Source: Bdellovibrionales bacterium
GTDB lineage: Bacteria > Bdellovibrionota > Bdellovibrionia > Bdellovibrionales > Bdellovibrionaceae
Direction: 5' to 3'
DNA length: 64,000 nucleotides
NCBI GenBank assembly: GCA_018266295.1
Contig: JAFEAQ010000004.1
Span: 682,001-746,000, forward strand
A program made the translations under genes and the position numbers. The notes beneath the pieces were generated by a model, which worked only from the letters and a program-made list of their open reading frames with translations, had not been told where the DNA came from and ran no database searches. Of this stretch, positions 2,703 to 28,932 are shown one piece after another (within the stretch, counting starts at the first letter, position 1; every line of letters starts with the position of its first letter).

Positions 2703-3320
2703 TTATTTATTCGGAGTTTTTCCTGTTTGGACGGGATAAAGGCATGATCCAGAGAATGCGGGCATCTGTGTCGAGTAAGGGCTTACTCGATCAAGAGTAT
2801 TATAAAAAGCTTGGATATTTGAAGTGAAATCAGACTCTTTTCTGGCGGAGTAAATGACTTGAAGAATATTTTTTTTATTTTTTAAATAGGCAGCGGCCTC
2901 AAAGTTATTCGGGGAAGGGCCATTAAGAAAATACCTTACTTCAAACTTATATTTATTTTTTGAAGTATATGCAGGCTGTTTTTCTAATTTGAACTTTGGG
3001 CTTTTTGCTTTGTATGGATCTGCAACTTCTTTCACAAGTTTTTCTACTCCATCTTCTCCTTTTGCAAACGGATGAGCGATTTGGGCATAAATGACTGCAG
3101 GGCTATTATTAAAGGTATTGCCTTCCTGGATATAGAAACTACATACTCCAAAGTTCGAAGCAGAGTCTTTATCAAGAAAGTAGTTGGGAGGAGCGTGAAC
3201 TCCAATAGAACTATCGTCTCTTATAAGTATGGCATCAATATCTTCAATTTTATTTTCTGCAAAAAGGAATGAACAAAAAAATAAAGTTCCAAAGAAAGTT
3301 AATTTTGAAAACTCGTGCAT
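2703..3320 (-). CDS. Secreted protein of unknown function
   Basis: About 205 residues beginning MHEFSKLTFFGTLFFCSFLFA, a good Sec signal peptide with cleavage expected after FLFA. I do not recognise the mature part. It is hydrophilic, with two cysteines near the ends (CSFYIQ and SCLYPV) that could form a disulfide. The ATG at 3320 has GAGG upstream, while the longer frame to 3392 puts a non-signal stretch in front and has no support. It is probably exported to the periplasm. It lies in the AT-rich accessory block. Confidence 0.65.
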   Translation of the reverse strand: MHEFSKLTFFGTLFFCSFLFAENKIEDIDAILIRDDSSIGVHAPPNYFLDKDSASNFGVCSFYIQEGNTFNNSPAVIYAQIAHPFAKGEDGVEKLVKEVADPYKAKSPKFKLEKQPAYTSKNKYKFEVRYFLNGPSPNNFEAAAYLKNKKNILQVIYSARKESDFTSNIQAFYNTLDRVSPYSTQMPAFSGSCLYPVQTGKTPNK

Positions 3321-3557
3321 ATTGCCTCGTAAACTATTTGATTTAGATATAAACAATATCAAATATATAAAACGATTGCGATGAATATGCACAATCGAGT
3401 GGCCTTAGGTCTGAATAAACTTTGAGACGCAGTAATTTGAAATAGCGTTGAAAGTATTAAACGCGTTCTCTGCTTTCTAAAACACGCACTAACTACTTCT
3501 GTCCAGGAAAGTAATTTCCACTTTATTTTTGAAAGATACATTGTTCATATTATAAAT

Positions 3558-4820
3558 ATGAGTAAATTTACATGCGTTTTATTTTTAGCAGTCTTGCTCA
3601 AACTCAATTTCTCACTGGCGTTAGATCCAAAAGATATAGATCCCAAAGAATTAGATAAGATGATCAAGAAGTCAGAACAGATAGTAGCTAGTGGGCATGC
3701 CTTCTACAGAAGTTTGGCGTGCCCTGATGGCTCAACTCCAGAGTTTGCTGGAGTAGGGACTAATTATGGAAAGAATGGCGAGATAATTGATAGCTATCGT
3801 ATTCGATGCAAAGATGGCACTAAGGGAAACTATGAGTGGGCGGAAGGGCAGACGACTCCTCCAAACCCTCCACCAGGATTCCGATTCAAAACTGCAAGTG
3901 AACTCAAGAGATTTAGTCCAAGAGGAAGAGTGAATGAACTTTCAGTTTCACCTACTGGTACAGTGTGGATTACGACAGCTGCAGGCTATTCTTATTTCAT
4001 TAATAAGTTTGAAGATAACTGGGTGCCTGGCTCTTTGTTGGCTACAAAAGATAAGTACGCAAGTGACCTTGAAAGAATTAGTTTTTTTAATACCAAAATA
4101 GCTATCGCAACGGGGGGATTAAACGGAAAAATCTATCATACAGAAGATGGCGGTATTACATGGAAAGAGAGTAAGCCAACCCATGATCAGTGGGTATATT
4201 CAGTATATTTCACCCCGGACGGAAAAGTTTGGATGGGTGGGTCCGCTGGATTGATCACCTATTCTGAAGACTTTGGAAAAACATGGAAGCAGCTTAAGAC
4301 CTCATTTAATACCGATCACCGTCTTGCTTCGATTTTTATGTCTAACGATAAGGCGGGGATTGCCGGTTCGTTGGATGGCAATGATTTGCGAACAACCTTA
4401 GATAATTGGGAAACCTCCAAATCTATCGCAACTCCAAAGTCACAGAACTTAACGGAGAAAAATGCCCGCGATACCTTGAAAAAAATCTCGGAATTCAATG
4501 GTGAGTTTATAGTTAAACAGTCTGATTTGGTATTTCATACCAAAAAAGCCAACATTAAGTGGAGCGGCTTCAAAGACCTTAAAATATTAGATTTTAGCAT
4601 AGATACTGAAGCAAAAAAAATCTACCTCATAGATAGTAGTGGTTACGTGTATACTTCTTCAGACCTGAACAATTTTAGTAAGGTCGGAACAGAGCGTGTT
4701 CAGGTACCAGTCATAGATTCAAAGTTTTCGGCGGGATACTTTCACGTACTTGATGCTGATACGGTTATTTATAAGATTGGCAACGGAAAATTTGAAAAGC
4801 GGGCGCCTTTGTTCTACTAG
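3558..4820 (+). CDS. Secreted YCF48/BNR-repeat (beta-propeller) protein
   Basis: 420 residues with a signal peptide (residues 1-21). The first ~110 mature residues hold a cysteine pair and a Pro-rich joint (TTPPNPPPG). The rest shows repeated Asp-box motifs such as TEDGGITW and SEDFGKTW about 40 residues apart, the hallmark of YCF48/sialidase-type propeller blades. Such proteins are binding or assembly factors, and no catalytic residues are evident. No clear Shine-Dalgarno precedes the ATG; the upstream TATTAT is close enough for a very short leader. It is divergent from the gene at 2703-3320. Confidence 0.75.
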   Translation: MSKFTCVLFLAVLLKLNFSLALDPKDIDPKELDKMIKKSEQIVASGHAFYRSLACPDGSTPEFAGVGTNYGKNGEIIDSYRIRCKDGTKGNYEWAEGQTTPPNPPPGFRFKTASELKRFSPRGRVNELSVSPTGTVWITTAAGYSYFINKFEDNWVPGSLLATKDKYASDLERISFFNTKIAIATGGLNGKIYHTEDGGITWKESKPTHDQWVYSVYFTPDGKVWMGGSAGLITYSEDFGKTWKQLKTSFNTDHRLASIFMSNDKAGIAGSLDGNDLRTTLDNWETSKSIATPKSQNLTEKNARDTLKKISEFNGEFIVKQSDLVFHTKKANIKWSGFKDLKILDFSIDTEAKKIYLIDSSGYVYTSSDLNNFSKVGTERVQVPVIDSKFSAGYFHVLDADTVIYKIGNGKFEKRAPLFY

Positions 4821-25233: not shown

Positions 25234-25515
25234 GATCTCAAACTAGCTAAGGCGAGGAGGTGGAACAAGGACAGAAAAGATAGAGTCAGTGACAAAGTAA
25301 AAAAAAGGGCCGGTTTCTTTACCTCATGAATCAGTTATTTCTAACCTCAACATTACCAGGAAAGTTACCGGCTTGGGTTTAGTATGGGTTTCCGGTATCG
25401 TAGTAGTTCGACGATAAGATGGTGCTTTTGCGAACGCTGCTAAACATTTCTCACGGCGCGGTGTTGTTACAAGTATCAGTAATTACAGGTTATTTTTGTC
25501 TATTTTACTTTGTCT

Positions 25516-25529
25516 ACTACAAACGTAGT
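25516..25529. promoter_or_regulatory. BlaI-type operator half-sites (imperfect box)
   Basis: ACTAC-AAAC-GTAGT, an inverted repeat that shares the TACTAC/GTAGTA core of BlaI/MecI boxes. It touches the first base of the TTGACA -35 hexamer. Confidence 0.55.
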
Positions 25530-25556
25530 TGACAATTACTACCGCGGTAGTAGGAT
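25529..25556 (+). promoter_or_regulatory. Promoter of the BlaI/M56 operon
   Basis: Perfect -35 TTGACA (25529-25534), 16-base spacer, TAGGAT (25551-25556). The expected start site coincides with the ATG at 25563, so the transcript may be leaderless. Confidence 0.6.
25537..25552. promoter_or_regulatory. BlaI-type operator (perfect 16-bp palindrome)
   Basis: TACTACCGCGGTAGTA fills the spacer between the -35 and -10 hexamers of the repressor's own promoter, as expected for autorepression by a BlaI/MecI-type dimer. Confidence 0.8.
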
Positions 25557-25562
25557 TTTTTC

Positions 25563-25952
25563 ATGGCAAATAAACTCCTTGAAGTCGGCCCATTAGAACT
25601 CGAAGTCCTCGGCATCTTAAATACCGCGGGAGAGCAATCCGTGAGTGACATTCAAACTCACTTGAAAAACTCTGGCCACGATTTGGCCTATACAACTGTG
25701 ATGACGGTGCTTGTGCGGTTGTATAATAAAGATCTTGTGACTCGTAAAAAAGACGGACGTTTGTTCCTGTATGCAGCGGCGAAAAAGAAAGACTCTTCGG
25801 CTCAGTCCATTTTCGAAAAAGTGAAGAACTCATTGTTTCGCTCAGAGCGTCTGACGCCGATTTTAAGTTTGCTTGATAACGAAGACGATTTAACGCGTGA
25901 AGAACTCGAAGAGCTTAAAAAAGCTGTCGAGCAAAGACTGAAGAGGACTTAA
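25563..25952 (+). CDS. BlaI/MecI/CopY-family transcriptional repressor
   Basis: 129 residues. A winged helix covers residues 7-75 (LGPLELEVLGILNTAG, then YTTVMTVLVRLYNKDLV, the recognition region). The dimerisation helix contains the sites where the partner protease normally cleaves. BlaI-family proteins repress genes until a membrane metalloprotease inactivates them. It is 3 bases upstream of the M56 protease gene. Palindromes with the family's TACTAC/GTAGTA core lie at its own promoter and at 27095. Confidence 0.92.
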   Translation: MANKLLEVGPLELEVLGILNTAGEQSVSDIQTHLKNSGHDLAYTTVMTVLVRLYNKDLVTRKKDGRLFLYAAAKKKDSSAQSIFEKVKNSLFRSERLTPILSLLDNEDDLTREELEELKKAVEQRLKRT

Positions 25953-25955
25953 AGC

Positions 25956-27074
25956 GTGGAAGTGATTTTCTTTAACCTCTTTGTGAATGCAACGTTCTCG
26001 CTGTTAGTGGGGCTCGGGCTTGTTTTGGCCTGCACTCACTACATGCGCGTGAACTGCGGTCCTTGGAAGTTATTTTTGTTATCACTTCCGTTTGTAAAAG
26101 TTATTTATGATTTCTCAAAAGGTGTGCCTCGCTCGTCCATCTTACTGAACAATATCGATCCTTATGCCGTCCCTCCCGGAGTGCAGACCTTTTCCTTGGG
26201 CGTCGGGGTGAATAACTTCATCCCGCAGCTCAAGGCATTGTTTACGATTCATGACTATGATGGCACTCAGTATGGTGTCAGCGTCGGTGATTACGTGGTG
26301 TACTGGCTGGCTCGTAATGTCAGCCCGCAGTTTCCGCTTTATATTGTCTATGCGATCTTGGCCGTGGGGCTTGTACTACTTGTTCGCCGTGCTTATCTCG
26401 GAATGCAGTTTGAGCTTCAGCGTATTGGCGATCGCAAAGAATCGGTGTTGCTTGAAACTAAGCAATTATTTTTGCGTAATGTTGATATTTATATTTCAAA
26501 ATCGTTTTCGGGCACGCCATTTACCGGCGGGGTGTTGAATCCATATATCTGTATTCCCCGTGATGCCTATGAGTCTCTGTCCCCTGCGGAATTGCAAGCG
26601 GTGATTGCGCATGAACTCGGTCATGTTCAGCAATTTGATTTACTGATCACGATGGCGATCTGTGCGCTGGGTGATATCTTCTGGTTTGTTCCGGGTTACC
26701 GTTGGCTTTGTCGTAAGCTTGAGCGCATGCGCGAGATTATCGCCGATCAACGAGCAGTGCACGCAGGTGCCACTCCGGAAGTTCTGGCTTCCGCATTGAT
26801 TAAGTTAAGAGAGATTGCGATGCTCGGTGAAGGCGGAATGATTTTCTATGCGCCGTTTTTAAGAGAACAATCTTTGTTGAAGATTCGTATCGAAAGTCTG
26901 CTGGGACTTCCGGATGAACAGCCGCCACGTTGGATGTGGAAGAATCTGTGGAGCCGTTTATTAATTACGTTCTGGCTTGTGGGTGCGGTGCTGAGTTCAA
27001 ATCTCGGCGGCAATCATCAGACATACAATCCATATGCTCACGGTTCTGTGCATATCTTTTCACAAGACAGCTAA
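25956..27074 (+). CDS. M56-family membrane metalloprotease (BlaR1-like, no sensor domain)
   Basis: 372 residues starting with GTG. Membrane segments are near residues 5-28, 36-52, 126-145 and ~338-356. The zinc motif HELGH is at 219-223, with acidic residues in REIIADQRAV (~260-264) as third-ligand candidates. BlaR1 has an extra ~250-residue extracellular penicillin-binding domain; here only about 15 residues follow the last helix, so the signal is not a covalently bound beta-lactam. It is predicted to inactivate the repressor encoded just upstream. Confidence 0.85.
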   Translation: MEVIFFNLFVNATFSLLVGLGLVLACTHYMRVNCGPWKLFLLSLPFVKVIYDFSKGVPRSSILLNNIDPYAVPPGVQTFSLGVGVNNFIPQLKALFTIHDYDGTQYGVSVGDYVVYWLARNVSPQFPLYIVYAILAVGLVLLVRRAYLGMQFELQRIGDRKESVLLETKQLFLRNVDIYISKSFSGTPFTGGVLNPYICIPRDAYESLSPAELQAVIAHELGHVQQFDLLITMAICALGDIFWFVPGYRWLCRKLERMREIIADQRAVHAGATPEVLASALIKLREIAMLGEGGMIFYAPFLREQSLLKIRIESLLGLPDEQPPRWMWKNLWSRLLITFWLVGAVLSSNLGGNHQTYNPYAHGSVHIFSQDS

Positions 27075-27094
27075 AGCATTTTTTTGAAACTAAA

Positions 27095-27110
27095 TACTAC
27101 ATATGTAGTA
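27095..27110. promoter_or_regulatory. BlaI-type operator (perfect 16-bp palindrome)
   Basis: TACTACATATGTAGTA is a near-ideal BlaI/MecI box. It lies downstream of a TTGAAA -35-like hexamer (27084-27089) and overlaps the probable -10, 19 bases before the start of the secreted-protein gene. Confidence 0.8.
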
Positions 27111-27129
27111 GTAAAACCAGGAGGCATCT

Positions 27130-27546
27130 TTGAAACATGTATTACAAATCACCAGTGTCGCGATCTTTATTCTTTTTGCAGCCATCTCTGAGGCGGGAAC
27201 GATACGAGCCACAGAGATGGATCAAGCGACTTGGGGGAAGGTCTTTGCCGGCCAACTCAAAGATTTTCTAATTGAGTTCCGCAAAGGAGACACGTTGCCA
27301 CTCACGTTCACTGCTGAGGGCGATTTCTTCGAAACGACGCAAGTGCAGCCAACGCCTTTGAAAGTGAAGAAAGACCTGTGGATGAAAGTCGACGGATCAA
27401 AATTAGAAGTTAGTTTAGATGGAACAAACTTTAAGCCCCTCCCTCAGACGGCTCATGGTTTGCTCTTAATTGGTGCGAGTGCGGATGACGCCAGTGGTGG
27501 CCGTGCAAACGGTATCAATGTGAATCTGAAAGCGTATCAGAAGTAG
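27130..27546 (+). CDS. Small secreted protein, predicted BlaI-type regulon member
   Basis: 138 residues from a TTG start with AGGAGG five bases upstream. The signal peptide ends near ISEA-GT. The mature part has about 115 residues, beta-rich, with no cysteines and no family I recognise. The gene sits directly behind the palindrome at 27095-27110 and 8 bases in front of the Skp-like gene. By position it is the first target of the repressor. It is not a beta-lactamase: no SxxK, SDN or metal motifs. Confidence 0.75.
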   Translation: MKHVLQITSVAIFILFAAISEAGTIRATEMDQATWGKVFAGQLKDFLIEFRKGDTLPLTFTAEGDFFETTQVQPTPLKVKKDLWMKVDGSKLEVSLDGTNFKPLPQTAHGLLLIGASADDASGGRANGINVNLKAYQK

Positions 27547-27554
27547 GGCAAGCC

Positions 27555-28058
27555 ATGAAAAAGTACTTAGTTCTCTTGTTTGCCTGGGCGGTGATATCCC
27601 CTCCCGCCCGGGCTGACACCAAAATCGGAGTGGTAGACATGGAAAAGATTATGAAGACCCTGCCGCGGGCGGTGAAGATCCGCGCAGATATTGAATCAGA
27701 CTACAAGAAAAAGAAAACCGAACTGGAGAAAGCAGAAGATGACTTACGAACGCTGGAAAAAGACCTCGAAAAAAAGAAAGCTGTTCTTTCTGAAGAAGCA
27801 ATCAAACGAAAACAAGAAGAATTCCAAAAACGACTTATGGAATTCCGAGAACAAGTAACCAAGAGCCAAACTGATCTTCAGAAGAAGCAAAACGATTTGT
27901 TTTCTCCCGTGCTTGAGCAAATTAAGAAAGCCATCACTGAAGTTGCGGCCGAGCGCGGGTACGGATTGGTTTTGAATCAGCAGCCGGATTTGCTTTATGT
28001 AGGCTCGAGTACCGATATGACCTCTGAGGTCGTCAAACACATGGATCAAAAGCATTAG
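27555..28058 (+). CDS. skp: Skp/OmpH-family periplasmic chaperone
   Basis: 167 residues. A signal peptide (1-20) is followed by KIGVVDMEKIMKTLP, the OmpH N-terminal strand. Long charged helices (residues ~45-125, coiled-coil tentacles) come next, and a final strand AERGYGLVLNQQPDLLYVG closes the body. Skp trimers hold unfolded outer-membrane proteins. It is the second gene behind the BlaI-type operator, coupling that regulator to outer-membrane assembly. Confidence 0.9.
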   Translation: MKKYLVLLFAWAVISPPARADTKIGVVDMEKIMKTLPRAVKIRADIESDYKKKKTELEKAEDDLRTLEKDLEKKKAVLSEEAIKRKQEEFQKRLMEFREQVTKSQTDLQKKQNDLFSPVLEQIKKAITEVAAERGYGLVLNQQPDLLYVGSSTDMTSEVVKHMDQKH

Positions 28059-28080: not shown

Positions 28081-28932
28081 TTGCATATTGGTTTGCTGCT
28101 ACTGTTTTGGCCGAAAGCCGAAAAAGATCTAAAGACACCACCAGACGTTATTGAATTCGAACTCAAGCCCTCAGCCTCTAGCGACGGTCCTGCTGAAACT
28201 CCTCTAGGTTCGCAGAAAAGCGGAGGTTCGAGGGCGACCTCAAAGAAACCCACTTCGCGTGAGTTGGTTCACAAAATTCTTTCCAATGATTATTCCCCTG
28301 ACGGTCCTTTGGCGTCTGGCAAAGGATCCCGTCACCATCGCGAAGGCAGTTGGGAGGAAGGTGGTTACAGCAAAGAGGATGATCCCAACGTCGCTTGGGG
28401 GGCCGGCGGTGGGACTTTCGAGCGCATTCAGGATTTTTCTCTGATGAAGCGCTTCCACGCGAAAGTTGATGCTTTGTTATTTTATCCCGGGGTTCTGGCC
28501 CGCCATCAAATCAGTGGTTTTGTAAATGCGCGGATTGTTTTAAATCAGAAGGGCGATTGCGATTGGCGTCTTACAAAGATTCGTGCCGCTGATCCTTACT
28601 TACGTGTCTACATTTTACATTTGCTCAAGAAAGTTTGCGATGAAAACTATAAAAACTATTTGGGCGGACGGGTGATGACAAATGTGGATATGACTTTTCA
28701 GTTTTCCATTTCGGAACAGCCCACGACGGACGAGCTTATCCAACAGAATCAGAAAATATTGGGGAATGTGCTTTTCTTTTTTAGAAATAGCCATCAAAGC
28801 GTGGCTGAATGGCATCTGGGACCGCTCACGGGTGTTTTTCCGTTGCCGTTTGTGAACGTTGATTTTGCTTGGGTCTTTGAAAATTTTGATAAGTATGTGA
28901 ACCACAAAGATCCACTCCAAGAGTTTCATTGA
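28081..28932 (+). CDS. TonB-like protein with C-terminal TonB-type domain
   Basis: At least 283 residues. The 28081 start is a TTG without a ribosome site, but the frame is open upstream to 28021. Read from there it supplies a proper membrane anchor (IRFFLLSLSLHIGLLLLFW) like that of TonB. The true start is probably a rare codon near 28054 or translational coupling to the skp stop. A Ser/Gly/Lys-rich linker follows (residues ~25-110). The region FYPGVLARHQISGFVNARIVLNQKG and on resembles the TonB C-terminal fold. It is third in the BlaI-box operon. Confidence 0.7.
   Translation: MHIGLLLLFWPKAEKDLKTPPDVIEFELKPSASSDGPAETPLGSQKSGGSRATSKKPTSRELVHKILSNDYSPDGPLASGKGSRHHREGSWEEGGYSKEDDPNVAWGAGGGTFERIQDFSLMKRFHAKVDALLFYPGVLARHQISGFVNARIVLNQKGDCDWRLTKIRAADPYLRVYILHLLKKVCDENYKNYLGGRVMTNVDMTFQFSISEQPTTDELIQQNQKILGNVLFFFRNSHQSVAEWHLGPLTGVFPLPFVNVDFAWVFENFDKYVNHKDPLQEFH

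Follow-up and report, generated by a model that had tools for sequence, protein, structure and literature searches.

A BlaI/M56 cassette without a penicillin sensor, with a predicted two-promoter regulon and a conserved secreted protein, in Bdellovibrionota

The closest described relatives of the locus reported here are the BlaI-BlaR1 and MecI-MecR1 systems of staphylococci and bacilli, in which genes for a repressor and a membrane protease lie together and a second promoter is also controlled. In Synechocystis, the available part of the PetR-PetP description presents a BlaI-family regulator paired with a BlaR1-family protease, with copper as the input and a regulon of four proteins (PMC7896320). 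Clostridium thermocellum BlaI_0696 and BlaI_1845, in the portion of their account drawn on here, are self-regulating; their regulons are very small, their operators are paired inverted repeats, and they have a BlaR1 partner and hypothetical targets (PMC8457756). On these two partial accounts, BlaI/M56 switches without a penicillin sensor (PetR/PetP, PMC7896320) and BlaI proteins with a tiny regulon and paired operators (PMC8457756) are already known, and the cassette described below is therefore not a new kind of system. What is new is a conserved family of secreted proteins, which elsewhere lies beside genes for ECF-sigma factors or XRE regulators. In the open-licence PMC literature, no paper was found that combines BlaI, M56 and Bdellovibrio, and no title or abstract among those listed describes the cassette.

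The cassette lies in a 64,000-nucleotide stretch of the genome of a Bdellovibrionales bacterium, a relative of the predator Bdellovibrio (the window; GenBank assembly GCA_018266295.1, contig JAFEAQ010000004.1, positions 682,001 to 746,000), and its features are collected in Table 1. It shares with BlaI-BlaR1 and MecI-MecR1 the repressor family, an M56 protease with the predicted membrane and protease fold of BlaR1, and adjacent repressor and protease genes accompanied by a second, putatively controlled promoter. It differs from them in having neither a penicillin-binding domain nor a beta-lactamase, in a secreted target of unknown family, and in running all of its genes in one direction rather than as a divergon. 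PetR-PetP, likened here by family and by its partial description, sets a precedent for an input other than beta-lactams and for a tiny regulon; its targets, however, include photosynthetic electron carriers, and the available text describes no conserved secreted-protein partner (PMC7896320). The C. thermocellum half-sites GTCTAT and GACTAT resemble the GTAGT and ACTAC of the present operators, although half-site sequence and spacing differ and the targets are unrelated as far as that text describes them (PMC8457756).

Table 1. Predicted features of the cassette and the genes behind it, in window coordinates.
Feature	Coordinates	Strand	Remarks
Distal operator box, blaI promoter	25515..25530	.	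TACTACAAACGTAGTT; imperfect; 3' half enters the -35 hexamer GTAGTTGACA
-35 hexamer, blaI-M56 promoter	25529..25534	+	TTGACA; TTG hexamer two bases before the box in 11/11 blaI promoters
Proximal operator, blaI promoter	25537..25552	.	TACTACCGCGGTAGTA; perfect 16-bp palindrome, within the 16-bp promoter spacer
-10-like hexamer, blaI promoter	25551..25556	+	TAGGAT; first two bases shared with the operator; start codon 6 nt later
BlaI/MecI-family repressor	25563..25952	+	129 aa; PF03965, E 5.3e-24, 85.2 bits (cut-off 22.6)
M56 membrane zinc protease	25956..27074	+	372 aa; PF05569, 64.4 bits (cut-off 31)
Candidate -35, second promoter	27084..27089	+	TTGAAA; read by eye; 16 bp before the -10-like TAGTAG
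Second-promoter operator	27095..27110	.	TACTACATATGTAGTA; perfect 16-bp palindrome; candidate -10 at 27106-27111 lies partly in the right half-site
Small secreted protein	27130..27546	+	138 aa; TTG start; apparent signal peptide (by eye); conserved target
Skp/OmpH-like periplasmic chaperone	27555..28058	+	PF03938, E 3.1e-33, 115.4 bits (cut-off 32.4)
Putative TonB/TolA-like envelope protein	28054 or 28081 to 28932	+	start uncertain, either the TTG of the ORF list at 28081 or a site farther upstream that overlaps skp

Comparison with related genomes defined a core unit of two boxes, BlaI, M56, a third box and the small secreted protein (27130-27546), with all genes on the plus strand. Of 368 Bdellovibrionota genomes, 11 encode an M56 orthologue, the window's own included (E up to 1e-20); a contig search with the single protein returned no match, and an alignment search returned 10 loci. 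blaI lies directly upstream of M56 at 10 of the 11 loci, the remaining one (G019) being truncated at that point. At each of the 10 loci with blaI, the promoter of this gene has one or more exact core boxes, and an exact core box follows M56 at all 11 as well as in the myxobacterium Minicystis rosea. An intact gene for the secreted protein stands behind this third box at nine loci, the contig ending there in G230 and a short remnant being left in G019. M56 is broken or truncated at two of the loci (G011 and G019). In the decayed G019 cassette (L034, 6036-6200), M56 is cut at its 5' end, blaI is absent, the secreted-protein gene is a remnant, and the box is still perfect; this metagenome-assembled genome (MAG) is labelled Streptomyces griseus and was placed in the window's own family, and its M56 is 48% identical to that of the window. 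Nine of the 11 contigs come from Bdellovibrionaceae, Pseudobdellovibrionaceae, Bdellovibrionales, Bdellovibrio and Oligoflexia MAGs and from the MAG labelled Streptomyces griseus. Flanks, compared as displayed proteins over spans of at most about 4.5 kb upstream and 6.5 kb downstream of the first box, differ between loci; outside the core only a few locus pairs share proteins, namely Skp (the window and G016), a PDZ protein (G005 and G018) and weak ABC-type and AraC-type matches.

In Myxococcota, M. rosea DSM 24000 (CP016211, L039) carries box, BlaI, M56, box and secreted protein in this order, with identities to the window proteins of 50% for BlaI, 33% for M56 and 29% for the secreted protein, the last being a probable lipoprotein in this species. 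A profile of the secreted protein matched 7 of 377 Myxococcota genomes. Three of these (M. rosea, G618 and G626) have BlaI and M56 upstream in the same order, and the other four are weak matches with neither gene in the surrounding 1.5 kb or so. An exact box lies between M56 and the secreted-protein gene in G626; none is present in G618, a short locus that breaks off inside blaI. The M56 profile (E up to 1e-30) matched two of the 377 genomes, M. rosea and G626, and no relative of M56 was encoded in the phage records. A switch with the same control boxes appears to occur sporadically in distant bacteria.

The earlier note on this DNA had reported two perfect palindromes and one imperfect box at the promoters of the repressor operon and of the operon that starts at 27130, and all three were found in place. 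Among the 11 blaI promoters aligned, eight have GTAGTTGAC as the distal box, the exceptions being G327, G016 and M. rosea. Its asymmetry probably reflects the promoter, as the imperfect last base is where the -35 hexamer overlaps. Within the window, TACTAC-N4-GTAGTA with up to three mismatches gave 21 matches against 7.9 expected, and none of 100 shuffles reached 21, a count that includes weak matches elsewhere as well as offset matches to these boxes. The genome-wide search for the exact motif, which had also been proposed, returned two sites in 4.22 Mb, both at this locus. The exact core ACTAC-N4-GTAGT occurs five times in the genome, three times at the cassette and twice upstream of a second BlaI gene, and 42 further sites are one base off this core. 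Eight relatives and M. rosea, each searched whole, have three to seven exact core sites per genome, with the cassette boxes included in every one. Any genome has many short palindromes, and the boxes could in principle be chance palindromes beside an ordinary BlaI gene; that reading has a negligible probability, however, given that five of the five exact core sites of the genome are at BlaI loci and that the boxes hold the same positions in relatives, a conservation that already refutes it.

Four of the 42 one-mismatch sites were inspected. One falls within an MlaD coding gene (PF02470). Another, TACTATATGAGTAGTA at C11:563464-563479 (L063), lies at the start of a 189-aa open reading frame with an apparent signal sequence, which is a possible weak further target.

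The blaI promoter has a constant layout in the 11 sequences aligned (10 Bdellovibrionota loci and M. rosea), consisting of a -35 element, two bases, the 16-bp operator, and a -10 element that begins with the last two bases of the operator, which gives a spacer of 16 bp. TTGAC is present at the -35 position in 10 of the 11, and the proximal box of G230 has one mismatch. The -10-like hexamer is separated from the blaI start codon by 6 to 9 nt in all 11 promoters; therefore, the blaI mRNA is probably leaderless (window 25551-25563). At the second promoter, most loci have, as read by eye, a TTAAC- or TTGAAA-like hexamer about 16 bp before a -10 element made by the right half of the operator, a reading that is weaker than that of the blaI promoter and fails in M. 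rosea. In the interval between M56 and the box (window 27074-27095), 10 of 12 loci have a T run whose end is 9 to 13 nt away from the box, often preceded by a hairpin-like stretch. The T run may be either the M56 terminator or a promoter element.

The BlaI profile matches BlaI/MecI structures over the full length (1sd4, E 2.3e-14; 1okr, E 2.7e-14), and the palindromes at the gene's own promoter, present and conserved, are putative operators. Identity with the CopY/TcrY copper repressor was considered and rejected, the score being 54 bits against a TIGR02698 equivalog cut-off of 121.95. The cleavage site of Staphylococcus aureus BlaI is given as Asn101-Phe102 in the available part of PMC9834060. 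These residues align with Leu-Leu in the window BlaI in a profile alignment; the two residues thus differ, and a hydrophobic P1' residue is retained.

In M56, the zinc motif comprises HELGH at residues 219-223 and ExxxD at 260-264, with H219, E220, H223, E260 and D264 invariant in 10 of 10 aligned rows. An AlphaFold model (pLDDT 82.7, pTM 0.79) matches the membrane and protease part of BlaR1 (8ext; Z 14.6, rmsd 3.6, 231 aligned), and the best Foldseek E value for the model was 2.3e-4. Structure and sequence matches to BlaR1 both end ahead of the sensor domain. The penicillin-binding sensor domain is absent from M56, which stops about 25 residues past its last predicted helix, and the blaR1_generic model scored 43.3 bits against a cut-off of 400. 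These results bear out the earlier proposal that the protein keeps HELGH and lacks the penicillin-binding domain. Between helices 2 and 3, a stretch of about 70 residues (approximately 57-125) contains predicted strands and the invariant residues P58, S61, G82, G84, P90, F96 and D112. Because the fold is shared with BlaR1, we infer that this stretch would be the matching extracytoplasmic loop and the input side of the protein, the sidedness of helices and loops being our own reading. According to the available part of PMC9834060, purified BlaR1 cuts BlaI directly, and BlaR1 cleaves itself between Ser283 and Phe284. BlaR1 Phe284 aligns with F301 of M56, and Phe is retained in 9 of 10 rows.

Overall, we favor, with a probability of roughly 0.7, a self-contained and self-regulating membrane-proteolysis switch, with repression of both promoters, relief through M56, and the secreted protein as main output or feedback ligand. 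A BlaI-type dimer would bind the palindromes in the two core promoters, those of blaI-M56 and of the secreted-protein operon, and block RNA polymerase at both. M56, as a four-helix zinc protease, would receive an envelope signal through its extracytoplasmic loop rather than through a penicillin-binding domain, and its cytoplasmic HExxH site would then cut BlaI, releasing both promoters. The secreted protein would act in the cell envelope, either as a feedback ligand or as the chief output that is conserved, and the operon of this genome would have gained a second Skp chaperone and a TonB-like protein. The switch is supported by the exactness and small size of the regulon, by cassette order and boxes that persist between different flanks and in M. 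rosea, by the fixed overlap of operators and promoter elements, and by the M56 motifs and fold with the retained Phe; against it stand the residues at the BlaI cleavage position, which differ from those of S. aureus, the broken or truncated M56 at two of 11 loci, and the occurrence of the secreted protein apart from BlaI/M56. The genes, boxes, promoter geometry, regulon size and conservation, as well as the predicted protease fold and motif, are read from sequence. Repression by occlusion and its relief by cleavage of BlaI are suggested by the operator layout and by the behavior of BlaR1 (PMC9834060, available part), and the direction of the signal and the role of the secreted protein are our interpretation. 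The signal may be a new one for a BlaI/M56 circuit.

Cell-wall damage is an unlikely alternative signal, whereby beta-lactams or peptidoglycan fragments would be the input and M56 or BlaI would sense muropeptides. In the available part of PMC3305447, a peptidoglycan dipeptide frees Bacillus licheniformis BlaI from its operator, and a sensor domain is therefore not the only possible input; the effect, however, requires millimolar ligand (PMC3305447). Moreover, no beta-lactamase or penicillin-binding protein gene was seen in the cassette and displayed flanks of the 11 loci, in a reading of the protein starts by eye.

Besides the cassette, the genome has a single further BlaI gene, which belongs to a second set, BlaI-M56-DsbA-like, at C11:571326-572558 (L006, 5342-7561), with exact core boxes at C11:572522 and 572544, 22 bp apart. 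G056 (L074) and G018 (L075) have sets arranged in the same way, again with boxes 22 bp apart. The second set of the window's genome shares the operator core ACTAC-N4-GTAGT with the cassette but differs in its BlaI, which is 29% identical, and in the outer operator base, which is mostly G/C rather than T/A; a DsbA-like gene, with no separate exact box before it, replaces the secreted protein. The occurrence of this second pair in an unbroken series of genes that includes one for a DsbA-like thiol protein would suit a metal or redox switch, in which M56 activity is set by periplasmic copper or another metal, as would the precedent of PetR/PetP, a BlaI/BlaR1-family pair through which copper sets the exchange between plastocyanin and cytochrome c6 (PMC7896320, available part). 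For the cassette, however, we consider such a switch unlikely as well: no metal transporter, cupredoxin or cytochrome gene is found in the conserved cassette, and Cys occurs in four of nine aligned secreted proteins, in three of these four within the signal-sequence region.

As targets of the circuit, the earlier note had named the secreted protein, the Skp-like chaperone and the TonB-like protein. The secreted protein holds, with orthologues behind the box in relatives, and so does the broader picture of a BlaI/M56 circuit with operators at both promoters and envelope-facing targets; the other two proteins fall away as conserved targets. The Skp gene starts 9 bp behind 27546, and this close spacing behind the secreted-protein gene suggests that the Skp and TonB-like genes are probably co-transcribed with it. 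Skp follows the secreted-protein gene at two loci only, those of the window and of G016, whose Skp proteins are 28% identical. OmpH usually lies beside bamA, and the genome's other OmpH copy, 42% identical to the cassette copy, adjoins an Omp85/POTRA (BamA-like) gene. By its distribution, the cassette Skp appears to be a lineage-specific add-on. For the third gene, the label TonB-like is weak: the window protein has no Pfam match, and none to TonB_C at E up to 10, and TonB_C was matched by three of nine aligned family members at E up to 1, with a weak best E of 0.0086. Relatives of this gene occur in 41 of 368 genomes. At the 12 loci of these relatives that were checked, Skp, the secreted-protein gene, M56 or a box was nearby only at the window's own, and the other cassettes have no sequence-detectable counterpart of it.

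In G016 (L037), a third box at 2686, in a TTGACA-N2-box promoter, precedes the gene of a 306-aa envelope-type protein (2763-3680) upstream of blaI. This protein is a possible extra target. As a counterpart of the TonB-like protein, the same gene (L037:2763-3680) was rejected, with no detectable relation (E 0.21).

The secreted protein matched no family in Pfam or NCBIfam. Its model is moderate (pLDDT 70, pTM 0.59). With this model, every Foldseek match was at E 0.08 or higher and VIA Z did not exceed 2.7, and searching PDB sequences with a profile returned nothing below E 0.23; we base no statement about the fold on these negatives. Homologues were detected in 15 of 368 Bdellovibrionota genomes, nine with the BlaI/M56 cassette and six without it, the six including a weak partial match in G351 (E 2.9e-4) that was not taken as an orthologue; a second, partial match in G023 was likewise left out. 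Beside the homologues of the cassette-free genomes G264, G226 and G269 lie a small XRE-like HTH gene (Pfam-confirmed for G264, read by eye for G226 and G269) and an adjoining membrane-protein gene, and a similar membrane-protein gene lies beside that of G113. Beside the homologues in G264 and G023 lies a sigma-factor gene (in G264 confirmed by Sigma70_r2), with a one-helix protein that is a candidate anti-sigma directly downstream, and in G023 an S41 protease after it; the labels candidate anti-sigma and membrane protein are our reading of neighbors without a Pfam family. The cassette-free homologue loci are L056 (6232-8456), L057 (7313-9924), L058 (7242-8619) and L059 (6159-7424).

As the secreted protein is also found without BlaI/M56 beside ECF-sigma or XRE genes, it is not tied to this switch. 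Its recurrence beside several kinds of regulators, probably membrane-linked, is the most surprising result of the analysis and can be read in two ways, as a common output or as a common sensor subunit. Conceivably, then, the secreted protein is the sensor half of the switch and not an effector, binding the M56 extracytoplasmic loop and holding M56 off or on in the manner of a sensor domain that can detach. It is the sole gene that stays with the BlaI/M56 pair across two phyla, it adjoins other regulators with membrane partners elsewhere (ECF-sigma with a one-helix protein; XRE with a membrane protein), and the M56 loop has conserved residues; its place downstream of its own regulated promoter, however, also fits an output, and its model is only moderate. 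We regard this as possible and do not favor it. A bolder and somewhat more doubtful proposal is that the 27130 protein is the first member of a new family of envelope sensor subunits that are portable, one small periplasmic or lipoprotein module being plugged into BlaI/M56, into ECF-sigma with a candidate anti-sigma, and into XRE with a membrane protein; in its BlaI/M56 form it would take the place of the penicillin-binding sensor as a detachable part and act on the M56 extracytoplasmic loop. Our preferred reading remains the proteolysis switch with the secreted protein as main output or feedback ligand.

Genes for BlaI and M56 are readily annotated as beta-lactam resistance regulators, which is misleading here: there is no penicillin sensor, no resistance gene was seen, the regulon spans two promoters, and the target is a conserved secreted protein of unknown family. 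The regulon is small and exact, so both the signal and the output are directly testable. One operator core for two circuits in the same cell raises the question of cross-talk or insulation. The reuse of the secreted protein beside ECF and XRE regulators provides a handle on envelope monitoring in Bdellovibrio-like bacteria and in myxobacteria.
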